Source: a virus
DNA length: 37,514 nucleotides
Strand: one strand, 5' to 3'
IMG/VR virus record: IMGVR_UViG_3300037488_000591
Location: 1-37,514 of that record
A program made the position numbers and the translations under genes. Position 1 is the stretch's first letter, and every line of letters starts with the position of its first letter. The notes under the pieces were generated by a model. It was not told the origin of the DNA, made no database searches, and saw only the letters and a list, made by a program, of their open reading frames with translations. Positions 32,678 through 36,525 of the stretch are shown one piece after another.

Positions 32678-32697
32678 TTTCCAACCTAGGTCAGAAA
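32678..32697 (-). promoter_or_regulatory. 20-bp palindrome, copy 1 (imperfect)
   Basis: TTTCCAACCTAGGTCAGAAA on the plus strand. It differs from the consensus TTTCTGACCTAGGTCAGAAA at two positions in one arm. It lies 37 bp before the start of the 322-aa gene and about 45 bp after the -10 of its promoter. It could be an operator or an RNA hairpin. Confidence 0.8.
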
Positions 32698-32735
32698 GCT
32701 TTTAGGCAGAGGGCCAAAACAGGCCCTGCTGCCAT
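32691..32735 (-). CDS. Possible 14-residue leaderless leader peptide
   Basis: An ATG lies six bases after the -10 of the promoter, where transcription would begin, and opens MAAGPVLALCLKAF followed by a TGA. The TGA lies inside the palindrome copy. Such an arrangement could be a regulatory leader peptide, but the frame is short and has no ribosome site, so it may be chance. The same spacing at the second promoter is what makes it worth listing. Confidence 0.3.
   Translation of the reverse strand: MAAGPVLALCLKAF
32705..32733 (-). promoter_or_regulatory. Leader hairpin downstream of promoter 2
   Basis: GGCAG (32705-32709) can pair with CTGCC (32729-32733), and GGGCC (32711-32715) with GGCCC (32722-32726), around an AAAACA loop. 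The hairpin lies within the first 30 nt of the predicted transcript. There is no T-run after it, so it is not a standard terminator. It may control RNA stability or translation. Confidence 0.6.
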
Positions 32736-32741
32736 GATCGA

Positions 32742-32770
32742 ACTATACTAAAACTATACATTAAAGTCAA
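32742..32770 (-). promoter_or_regulatory. Sigma70-type promoter 2 (upstream of AAA+/vWA cassette)
   Basis: Reading the minus strand: TTGACT (32770-32765), a 17-bp spacer, TATAGT (32747-32742). A second copy of TATAGT lies inside the spacer (32758-32753), exactly 11 bp upstream. The -35 overlaps the stop codon of the upstream 70-aa gene. It would drive the AAA+/vWA cassette and perhaps all genes to its left. Confidence 0.85.
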
Positions 32771-32979
32771 GCGGGTTGATTAGGCCCCTTGTGCAGGTTG
32801 AAACGGATCGGCGTCTTGCAGTCACAGTGCGCGAGGATCGCGTCCTGCAAATACGAGCAGCCTTGTTGATGCCCGTTCCCACCCGGAGCGCGCACAGGGT
32901 TGTCCCACTCAGACTGAGCATACGGATCGAGATCCGGCTCATGGGACATAAGGTACATAGTCAGTTCTTCGTCGTTCAT
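32767..32979 (-). CDS. Hypothetical small protein, 70 aa
   Basis: The ATG at 32979 (MNDEELTMYLMSHEPDLDPY) overlaps the upstream TGA (ATGA) and follows GGAGGA at eight bases. The N-terminal half is acidic and helical; the second half holds Cys/His residues (GCSYLQDAILAHCDCKTPIR) that could bind a metal. No family recognised. It is the last gene before promoter 2. Confidence 0.55.
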   Translation of the reverse strand: MNDEELTMYLMSHEPDLDPYAQSEWDNPVRAPGGNGHQQGCSYLQDAILAHCDCKTPIRFNLHKGPNQPA

Positions 32980-33197
32980 GCATCGTCCTCCTCGTCTTCC
33001 AGACAGCACCAGCCGTCTGCGTTAGCATCAGTTTCAACGAACTCGCCCCTGTTACAGATGTCTTCGTACTCCATCTGTTTGAGCAAGTCATGGCGAGTCC
33101 ATGCAGTGCAAATAAAACACCCCGGTTGGATGTCGGCGCACCGCTCGCCGTACCATCCGAGGACTTCGTCAGTCGTAAGAAACTTCCACTCGCTCAT
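32976..33197 (-). CDS. Hypothetical small protein, 73 aa
   Basis: The ATG at 33197 (MSEWKFLTTDEVLGWYGERC) overlaps the upstream TGA (TGATG), preceded by GGAGGA. The protein has five Cys residues (ERC, GCFICTAW, DIC, GWCCLEDEE, in that order) and an acidic tail. The cysteines are not in a standard zinc-finger spacing. Function unknown; the tight overlaps on both sides and the ribosome site support it as a gene. Confidence 0.55.
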   Translation of the reverse strand: MSEWKFLTTDEVLGWYGERCADIQPGCFICTAWTRHDLLKQMEYEDICNRGEFVETDANADGWCCLEDEEDDA

Positions 33198-33427
33198 CAC
33201 ACTTCCTCCTCTTCGTTCAACACTAAAAAGTCTTCGTCACGCTGGTACTTGGACTCGATGATGAACTGCTCAATCCTCCGCTCCAGCCCTACCATCACGC
33301 CCGCATCCAAGCAGGCGTTTGCGCTGTCGCGGTTGTCGTAGACGCCGACAATCATCTCGCCCCCGCAGGGGTCTTCCTGAAACACGATATGCATCCACAT
33401 ATCAGGTTGGCTGTAGTTGATGGTCAT
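33197..33427 (-). CDS. Hypothetical small protein, 76 aa
   Basis: The start at 33427 (MTINYSQPDMWMHIVFQEDP) has AAGGAG seven bases upstream; the ATG at 33433 is too close to that site. The product is a small mixed alpha/beta domain with a strand (EMIVGVYDNRDSANACLDAG) and an acidic tail (LNEEEEV). No family recognised. It overlaps the 103-aa gene by 26 bp. Confidence 0.5.
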   Translation of the reverse strand: MTINYSQPDMWMHIVFQEDPCGGEMIVGVYDNRDSANACLDAGVMVGLERRIEQFIIESKYQRDEDFLVLNEEEEV

Positions 33428-33713
33428 GATCATTCTCCTTGGTCAGGTTGAAACGGTCAGGGGTGCGGCGAGCCTTGGCACGCAGAGTGGACAGGGAGCG
33501 CAGGTTCATAAGGCGCTCGCGTACCGCATCAAGCTCCGCGTAGAGCTTGCCCGTGTAGGGGTCATCGTGGCGCATGTTCAGCGCCAGTACATGCATGGTG
33601 TCGAGGATGTCATCACGGGCCGCGCAGCACGCACGGGAGCTTTTGTCCGCGTAGAACTCGCGGTAGCGCGGGGCGTGATGGGCATAGGCTTCCTGATAGG
33701 TTCTGAGACGCAT
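33402..33713 (-). CDS. Hypothetical basic protein, 103 aa
   Basis: I use the ATG at 33713 (MRLRTYQEAYAHHAPRYREF): GGAGG lies eight bases upstream, matching the leader of the 80-aa gene at 34745. The ATG at 33719 is too close to that site. Helical, Arg/His/Tyr-rich N-terminus, then KLYAELDAVRERLMNLRSLS and a basic tail ending in a His/Gln run. No family recognised. Its leader keeps a CCTAGG that may be the core of a lost palindrome. Confidence 0.5.
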   Translation of the reverse strand: MRLRTYQEAYAHHAPRYREFYADKSSRACCAARDDILDTMHVLALNMRHDDPYTGKLYAELDAVRERLMNLRSLSTLRAKARRTPDRFNLTKENDHDHQLQPT

Positions 33714-33747
33714 CGTCATGTCCTCCTAGGACTGTTGAAAAAGTTAA

Positions 33748-34455
33748 TCAAGCAACACGAATCACGAAGCCGGAATCGTCCTGCTTCCCTTTGCCCTTGG
33801 CAGTGAGACCCACCACCACGCCGGGCGGATCAAGGAAACGCAGGTCGTTAGCGTCCCCGTCGATAACAGGACGGCCCAAGAATGTCTTGGGCAGTGGGCC
33901 AGCGAAGACTACAGCGATGTTGCGTTGTGTCTTGGCTGCCTTGGCAGCGTAGGCGGGGTTCGCGCCGGAGTACGACACGGTCAAATGGTAGTTAGCGGGC
34001 ACCTTACGCCCGGGGAGCTTGGTGTAGTCGTAGAACTGCACTGCGGGGAACATCTCCATGAGGTTCACATACTCCACGCCGCCGAACCCGAACACGGGGA
34101 AATGCTCCCATGTAATGTCAGAGGTGCCATTCAGACGCACCGCGAGACGCACGCCAAGCTTGTCTGCTTTGTATTCTGCCTCGCGGATATCGGCGATGAT
34201 CCGACGCATGAAGGCAGCGGGGTCATCGCGGAATGCGATGGTCTTGGTTATGCGGGCCTGCTGCACGGGGCGCATGGCACCGCGCCCTGCGGTGAACAGG
34301 CACGGGGCTTTGCACATGGCAAGCTCTGCCATAGGGCATACGTTGATACCCTCCACCGTATCCGCAGGGGCCAGATACATGATGGCAGTGAGGTACTCCC
34401 CGCCTGCATCGCTCTTGATCGTCTTGGCATTGTTGCCGATTGCAAGGTATCGCAT
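33748..34455 (-). CDS. Conserved phage protein of unknown function, 235 aa
   Basis: GAGGAC sits nine bases before the ATG. The sequence has a pattern I recognise from many phages and plasmids: GNNAKTIKSDAGGEYLTAIM, YLAPADTVEGINVCPMAELA with three cysteines near residues 40-53, then AGRGAMRPVQQARITKTIAF, VRLNGTSDITWE, FPAVQFYDYTKLPGR, NYHLTVSYSG and a closing VIDGDANDLRFLDPPGVVVG. The Cys residues might bind a metal. No function is established as far as I know. It is one of the best conserved-looking genes of the early block and has a palindrome in its leader. Confidence 0.75.
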   Translation of the reverse strand: MRYLAIGNNAKTIKSDAGGEYLTAIMYLAPADTVEGINVCPMAELAMCKAPCLFTAGRGAMRPVQQARITKTIAFRDDPAAFMRRIIADIREAEYKADKLGVRLAVRLNGTSDITWEHFPVFGFGGVEYVNLMEMFPAVQFYDYTKLPGRKVPANYHLTVSYSGANPAYAAKAAKTQRNIAVVFAGPLPKTFLGRPVIDGDANDLRFLDPPGVVVGLTAKGKGKQDDSGFVIRVA

Positions 34456-34482
34456 GGTCGCTGTCCTCTTGAGTTAAAAACT

Positions 34483-35864: not shown

Positions 35865-35882
35865 CCGTTCCAGCCGTTCCAG
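35865..35882 (+). repeat. Two further tandem CCGTTCCAG units
   Basis: Exact copies at 35865-35873 and 35874-35882, about 180 bp from the first array and in the same orientation. Confidence 0.9.
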
Positions 35883-36030
35883 TGTTTTGAAGGGGGGAGG
35901 GGCGGCCAGCGTTTTGCCCCTTGCTGGAACGGCCAAGTCCGTTCCGGTCCCGCCAGATTTTGCCGGGGGTCCCCCCCTCTCGAAAACACTGGAACGAACG
36001 GAACGGACATACTTTTGCTATACAAATACC

Positions 36031-36039
36031 TGTGGATAA
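36031..36039 (+). promoter_or_regulatory. Perfect DnaA-box sequence
   Basis: TGTGGATAA is the exact complement of the consensus DnaA box TTATCCACA. It is followed by an AT-rich stretch (CTTTTAAAATT) and sits inside the GTTCC-repeat region. A 9-mer can occur by chance, so the context is what gives it weight. Confidence 0.6.
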
Positions 36040-36152
36040 CTTTTAAAATTCTCAACCCCGACAATGACTTACGTTTTTTGGAAAAGTCGAAAAACGCCCA
36101 AATCCCGTTCCATTAGGATACTTATTTTACTGGAACGGCTGGAACGAACGGG

Positions 36153-36360
36153 ACTTCATTTACAAAATCTGGCAAAAGAACTCCCGAAAACACAAAAATC
36201 GGTACTTCATTTACAAAATCGGGTAAAACAACTGAACTACTTTTTAAAAAACCTTTATATACTTACGTTTTGCTAAGTGGGTACTTTTACAAAAAATGGT
36301 AAAACATCTTCGGACCTAGGTCAGAAAGCTACTTCATTTACAAAATCGGGTAAAACAACT
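36153..36360 (+). repeat. Interspersed repeat family with TTTAC-N8-GTAAA core
   Basis: A 30-bp unit beginning ACTTCATTTACAAAATC and ending TAAAACAACT occurs at 36204-36233 and 36332-36360. A diverged copy lies at 36153-36182 and a short one at 36285-36305. All keep TTTAC, eight bases, then GTAAA (GCAAA in the first copy), an inverted repeat able to form a small hairpin or a dimeric protein site. Confidence 0.85.
36309..36328 (+). promoter_or_regulatory. 20-bp palindrome, copy 5
   Basis: CTTCGGACCTAGGTCAGAAA, three changes from the consensus, all in the left arm. It lies in non-coding DNA between two copies of the TTTAC repeat. Confidence 0.8.
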
Positions 36361-36368
36361 CGGCACAC

Positions 36369-36396
36369 GCGCACACGCGAAGGAACTGGTATGGGC
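36369..36396 (+). repeat. 28-bp direct repeat, first copy
   Basis: Begins GCGCACACGCGAAGGAACTG and ends GTATGGGC. The second copy lies 227 bp further right, with 26 of 28 bases identical. The two copies bracket palindrome copies 6 and 7. Confidence 0.85.
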
Positions 36397-36434
36397 TTGC
36401 TGTGACTGTGTAATTTACATAGGCTGTACATTAC

Positions 36435-36454
36435 CTTCTGACCTAGGTCAGAAA
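36435..36454 (+). promoter_or_regulatory. 20-bp palindrome, copy 6
   Basis: CTTCTGACCTAGGTCAGAAA, one change from the consensus at the outermost base. On the plus strand it is followed by GGTTTTCAGG. No gene start lies close by. Confidence 0.9.
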
Positions 36455-36505
36455 GGTTTTCAGGAAGGTCTCTCAGCTGTTTCGTTTACGAGGGTTCTAC
36501 TTGGC

Positions 36506-36525
36506 TTTCTGGCCTAGGTCAGAAA
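36506..36525 (+). promoter_or_regulatory. 20-bp palindrome, copy 7
   Basis: TTTCTGGCCTAGGTCAGAAA, one change from the consensus. On the plus strand it is followed by GGTTTTTAGC. It lies 71 bp from copy 6. Confidence 0.9.

Follow-up and report, generated by a model that had tools for sequence, protein, structure and literature searches.

A 20-bp palindrome repeated in the early region of an uncultured phage as the putative operator of a phage-encoded regulator

What is the function of a short palindrome that recurs before the early genes of an uncultured phage? The question is raised by the IMG/VR virus record IMGVR_UViG_3300037488_000591, the whole 37,514-nucleotide stretch of which is referred to here as the window. 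Seven copies of a 20-bp palindrome lie between its positions 32678 and 36525, for which two readings had been offered from the sequence alone: an operator bound by a dimeric phage regulator, or an RNA hairpin. Based on the analyses described below, the palindromes are fairly likely to serve as operators, bound as double-stranded DNA by a regulator of the early genes that the phage itself encodes and that is probably a dimer.

The consensus 20-mer TTTCTGACCTAGGTCAGAAA is self-complementary. When up to three mismatches were allowed, eight matches were obtained in the window and none in any of 100 dinucleotide shuffles. At up to two mismatches seven copies were retained, at 32678, 34483, 34779, 35550, 36308, 36435 and 36506, which confirms the family of seven given by the original prediction, with six of its positions correct and the one given as 36309 moved to 36308, where the full 20-mer begins. 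Four copies, all on the minus strand (32678-32697, 34483-34502, 34779-34798 and 35550-35569), were found shortly before the ATG codons of minus-strand genes starting at 32641, 34455, 34745 and 35523, at distances of 36, 27, 33 and 26 bp, respectively, as had been proposed. The first is in the leader of the gene for a 322-aa protein, the second and the third are between cistrons, before a GP88-family gene and an 80-aa gene, and the fourth is in the leader of a 235-aa gene (34816-35523). The copies at 36308-36327, 36435-36454 and 36506-36525, assigned to the minus strand by inference, are in a non-coding, repeat-rich stretch (35639-36720) before the p292-type gene (36720-37514, minus strand, cut by the window's end); the last of them is downstream of that gene and 71 bp from the copy at 36435. 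The eighth match, with three mismatches (31278-31297, minus strand), is inside the coding sequence of an AAA-ATPase (30474-31676) and is possibly non-functional; contrary to what had been stated, the first 32 kb are therefore not entirely free of copies.

The 16-mer core of the palindrome was found in five viral contigs, with more than one exact copy in two of them, L001 and L003. L001 is a close relative with a GP88-family protein 91% identical to that of the window, and a copy is present at six of the six window slots that it spans: in the GP88 leader (L001:5313), at L001:3290, and, identical to the respective window copies at 34779, 35550, 36308 and 36435, at L001:5017, L001:4246, L001:3488 and L001:3361. 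An extra copy at L001:2158 is located about 100 bp upstream of the p292 ATG; by extrapolation, its counterpart would be about 125-145 bp past the window's end, and the palindrome set would continue beyond the window. One copy of L003 is reduced to half. G005, a syntenic and more distant contig (76% identity for GP88 and 29% for the 322-aa protein), carries the site TTCTGAC-N5-GTCAGAA in the leaders of its GP88 and 322-aa genes (at 15362 and 17443, respectively), as a pair 77 bp apart in its non-coding DNA, and as a two-mismatch copy about 90 bp upstream of its p237 gene. All five G005 matches with up to three mismatches are within 4.3 kb of 52.8 kb, and all seven copies of another long genome, G029, are gathered in 7.6 kb out of 52.1 kb, no others being found at up to two mismatches. 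The copies are thus not scattered at random over the genome, and the same leaders of relatives do carry sites; both points had been set beforehand as those on which the prediction should stand or fall.

The wider phage set was gathered by an outward search with the proteins p219 and 322-aa, and the best 80 of 138 relatives were used. A search that started from no given sequence detected a repeated palindrome family in 28 of 79 loci (many of the 79 being overlapping records of one phage), L169 and L188 showing only a different repeat at the -35 box; in 51 loci, many of them short, no such family was detected at that threshold. The sites of other phages include TTCACG-N4-CGTGAA, TTCCGGC-N4-GCCGGAA, TTCCACG-N4-CGTGGAA, TTTCGACACCTGTCGAAA and CGTATTA-N2-TAATACG, and candidate leader copies in G008-G011 keep just TTCA-N8-TGAA (no chance control). 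The family had been described as private, which holds for its sequence and not for its design, common to other phages. Scans of 30 kb and 32 kb, respectively, of KPP25 and RHph_TM3_14A, which are cultured relatives (DNA polymerase about 36%), detected no repeated palindrome family at the threshold used. When 25 kb of the window were compared by megablast with 50,697 phage records, no match was obtained, and no title or abstract opening describing these sites was found in the open-licence literature.

The half-sites were compared in seven genomes, with the copy upstream of p292 taken from L001. The identity of the outer half-sites was 0.91 for different slots within a genome (35 pairs) and 0.57 for one slot compared across genomes (55 pairs), falling to 0.35 where the genomes so compared differed in site class (32 pairs). 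The central 4 nt were less alike within genomes than the arms (0.79); in the window the centre is nearly fixed, with one change among the seven copies. Conserved slots, half-sites nearly uniform within each genome and a sequence differing among phages were seen in many uncultured phages. Because the arms are fixed in sequence and rewritten together, their concerted change points to a trans factor that reads the sequence, more usually a DNA-binding dimer, and it is a stronger argument for an operator than the mispair counts given below.

An RNA hairpin in the early mRNA, used for attenuation, antitermination or processing or as the site of an RNA-binding protein, is the best of the alternatives and is nevertheless considered unlikely. 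It would suit the leader and intercistronic positions of the copies on the sense strand, the folding of the 20-mers (five of seven with z < -1.4; two at about -9 kcal/mol and the other five at -4.0 to -5.4) and the two changes in the 32678 copy, which keep G.U pairs. It would also suit the finding in relatives of inverted repeats preceded by a TTAANTAGC-like flank, with 143 hits in sense and 59 in antisense orientation against about 16 in shuffles (1.08 Mb, overlapping records included), although the window's own flank fits this pattern poorly. Sequence arms fixed in each genome and rewritten in concert are, however, more than base pairing needs, and no Rfam match at the gathering score was obtained in 30400-37514.

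Compensatory changes, the check proposed for separating the two readings, were counted in the window together with L001 and L003 (16 sequences, 8 distinct) and in relatives. In the former set, which offers little variation, no pair was changed on both sides, and pairing (93.8%) was not above that of shuffles (94.1%, with 500 of 500 shuffles as high). For the relatives, 11 of 46 families with identical site sets were dropped, and the 35 families left, to which the window does not belong, gave 127 sites. Their 98 one-sided changes comprised 25 G.U, 21 A.C and 52 other mispairs, and 9 of their 15 double changes were still complementary. The site rule (four of six pairs, up to three differences) admits some chance hits, which would bring the G.U and A.C counts closer to each other. 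For the closest copies only, 6 G.U, 9 A.C and 5 other mispairs were counted, with no double change. Some results weigh against an operator: with identical sites counted once (99 sites), the mispairs were 22 G.U, 13 A.C and 41 other (two-sided p of about 0.18 by our own estimate) and 8 of 13 double changes were complementary, and spacers of both 4 and 5 bp occur in one phage, L172, which is awkward for a rigid dimer and would be tolerated by a loop. Taken together, the mispair counts give no clear signal of an RNA stem and no strong exclusion of one either. With the concerted change and the lack of a compensated pair in the window set, a DNA operator fits somewhat better than a hairpin.

The orientation of the copies was also considered, since the original prediction had given most of them a T-rich tail, with the copies at 36435 and 36506 pointing in the plus direction. 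The tail is not general, being absent from 32678 and 36308 in the minus direction, and the plus direction is unsupported. The copies at 36435 and 36506 are probably not reversed, because all seven can be placed in one orientation when read in the early-gene (minus) direction, because the downstream half holds seven of the eight changes counted in the 8-nt halves of the window copies (own count), and because GGTTTTTAG on the plus side of 36506 is the complement of an upstream flank CTAAAAACC. In the families of relatives no asymmetry between the halves was found (48 changes left, 50 right). A stem followed by a U-run, as in terminators, was flagged for the copy at 34779 on the minus strand and that at 36506 on the plus strand and for none of the other five; 10 terminator-like sites were found in all against a shuffle mean of 6.9. 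A further leader hairpin, which by eye seemed to lie between the promoter and the palindrome, proved no stronger than a control stretch (z of -0.52 and -0.72, respectively).

A role of the non-coding copies in replication, partition or packaging, as an origin or a centromere to which the leader copies would be secondary, is improbable. Three copies and other repeats are gathered within 35639-36720, and in several relatives the sites follow an ACCAGTT...CGCGCG stretch; the leaders of coding genes, however, carry copies in all groups examined in detail (G000, G005, G008-G011, G014 and G029), and no initiator was identified at the sites, no search aimed at ParA/ParB having been made. Recruitment of a host regulator's sites by the phage is hardly credible: the sites differ among phages with possibly different hosts, but the exact 18-mer core, searched in 84,980 species with one genome each, occurred at three places, once each in unrelated organisms and thus repeated in no host genome, where about 3.7 occurrences are predicted by chance alone (own estimate).

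The non-coding stretch has repeats of its own. CCGTTCCAG/CTGGAACGG repeats in both orientations occupy window positions 35639-36361, with four TACTTCATTTACAAAATC-like units at 36146-36361, and the matching stretch of G005 contains similar GGAACGGC repeats; the repeats at 35639-36361 are possibly an origin. (A)CCAGTT followed by CGCGCG or by a GTGTGCGCG-like stretch precedes non-coding palindromes in the window (36366-36396 and 36593-36623), in G005 and in L096-L106.

Returning to the operator reading, sigma70-like promoters were looked for at the leaders. TTGACT-N17-TATACT (35614-35642, minus strand, 10/12 match) and TTGACT-N17-TATAGT (32742-32770, minus strand) were found, with 44 nt between the end of the -10 box and the palindrome in each case (35550 and 32678, respectively); the region has 4 promoter-like sites, a count not above that of shuffles (mean 3.0). 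Among relatives, a promoter matching at least 9/12 was present within 120 nt in 22 of 40 deduplicated leaders, compared with 10% of shuffles, and the commonest distance from the -10 box to the conserved flank was 33 nt (7 of 22), near the 44 nt to the palindrome in the window. The site before the p219 gene abuts a -35 box in several relatives. Many early promoters of relatives have their -35 box overlapped by another, TTGACTNATANGTCAAG-like inverted repeat (leaders in L173, L181, L188, L206, L213 and others).

Beyond a conserved site, we infer all of the following steps. The early genes would be started from host promoters of the sigma70 type. A regulator made later, plausibly the 105-aa protein of the replication operon, would bind the palindromes as a dimer, one subunit at each of the two half-sites. 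Bound at the leader or intercistronic copies, it would hinder or stop the polymerase and thereby shut down early transcription in a stoperator-like manner; the site before the p219 gene, where the first early promoter lies, would serve it as an operator of the ordinary kind. Since the regulator would be encoded in the replication operon, the early genes would be shut off late; the chances that the 105-aa protein is this regulator, with such a delayed shut-off, are about even.

The 105-aa protein (19021-19338, minus strand) is an XRE-like helix-turn-helix (HTH) protein according to its predicted model. The model has a mean predicted local distance difference test (pLDDT) score of 89 and resembles the XRE proteins C.AhdI, HipB and P22 c2 with weak E-values; no PDB match was obtained at E <= 0.001, so that the likeness is at the fold level only, and the Pfam HTH_31 match fell just under the cut-off. 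The protein was found in 27 of 54 records (6/14 and 21/40), all 27 misses being records of up to 33,001 bases, and tblastn gave no match to it in 50,697 phage records. Among the early-strand open reading frames (ORFs) common to six long genomes, which include small ones of 134, 69 and about 84 aa, it is the sole recognised regulator. Because it is so widely conserved, it is taken as the best candidate binder, with about even chances.

Several results speak against this assignment. With half-sites read by hand, and with G028, which has no known site, omitted, divergence of the half-sites was correlated with that of the HTH protein (r 0.45) and with that of the 322-aa protein (0.52) in 26 genomes; the partial r was 0.10 for the HTH protein given the 322-aa protein (344 of 2000 permutations as high) and 0.31 for the 322-aa protein given the HTH protein (23 of 2000). 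For 25 genomes, r was 0.51 for the AAA, 0.48 for the VWA and 0.44 for the HTH protein. The recognition-helix window of the HTH protein gave a partial r of -0.01, and G014 has the recognition helix of G009-G011 and another site. The best HTH window (0.56, 0 of 2000), just after the recognition helix, is the best of about 100, uncorrected, and rests largely on one clade of three. Covariation of the recognition helix with the sites, suggestive by eye, thus failed the statistical tests, and the HTH protein, proposed as the binder in the original prediction, remains a candidate that covariation did not single out. The 322-aa protein itself may be considered as an alternative binder.

The protein p219 was dropped as an unlikely binder, as sites exist in phages without a p219 match (G029, with 52 kb, G023 and G030). 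Its fold is predicted with confidence, and neither PDB nor BFVD gave a match to it at E <= 0.001. An independent p219 profile, built without p237 and p292, matched 56 of 88 records, p237 weakly (0.0002, two-sequence search) and p292 not (0.25); as judged by this profile, p292 of the window is not detectably related to p219. The proteins p219 of L013 (3935-4585), p292 of the window (36720-37514) and p237 of G005 are fast-changing early proteins in the same slot, and in L001 a palindrome is located upstream of p292.

Among known systems, the stoperators of Cluster A mycobacteriophages (L5, Bxb1 and kin) are the nearest in arrangement. In PMC6550527 they are described as many sites with one dominant orientation and a phage-specific motif, the sites being 13-bp, asymmetric and bound by the temperate immunity repressor, and a case of identical HTH with distinct motifs is given for the repressors; the stoperator repressor is described as monomeric (PMC9283540). 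Many sites and a motif particular to the phage are shared with them, a main orientation may be, and the palindromes may work like stoperators. The window sites, in contrast, are palindromes of 16-20 bp and are restricted to the early region, and no integrase (PF00589 or PF00239, 0 of 20 records each) was found in the 20 records, which may be fragments. They were not classed as Cluster A stoperators because the site is a 20-bp palindrome and not an asymmetric 13-bp one.

The classical operators of lambdoid repressors and XRE controllers (P22 c2, 434, C.AhdI) consist of palindromic half-sites, a feature in common with the window sites together with an XRE-like candidate binder; here, however, there are many copies, most of them intercistronic or past the promoter. 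A set of nearly identical inverted repeats was found in the regulatory DNA of a single genome, and so was, at the fold level, a phage-encoded XRE-fold protein. The lambda nut site (boxA, boxB) likewise lies in leaders and has a conserved flank that precedes an inverted repeat particular to the phage, but there is no covariation in the window set, and within genomes the arms are more uniform than the centre.

For the phage group as a whole, uncultured and seemingly lytic, a wider scheme is put forward tentatively and with more doubt than belief: early genes would be shut off by dispersed, palindromic, stoperator-like sites, and the lineages would have rewritten these sites in concert, so that relatives in one cell avoid cross-repression. 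If true, operator specificity would have diverged in an immunity-like manner in phages that have no recognised integrase, about two dozen natural sets of genomes would be at hand for the study of a trans factor and its dispersed sites changing together, and the early regulon could be computed for phages known from metagenomes only.

Two further features of the window were recorded. Close to its C-terminus, the 2312-aa protein (9007-15945) carries an LPD38 large polyvalent protein domain. An N4-like virion RNA polymerase using hairpin promoters was rejected, as this protein matches LPD38 alone in Pfam (E <= 0.1) and, at E <= 0.01, a single PHROG, the function of which is unknown. The AAA ATPase adjoins a DUF2201 metallopeptidase/VWA-like protein (29104-31676), and this pair is present in all six of the long genomes compared.

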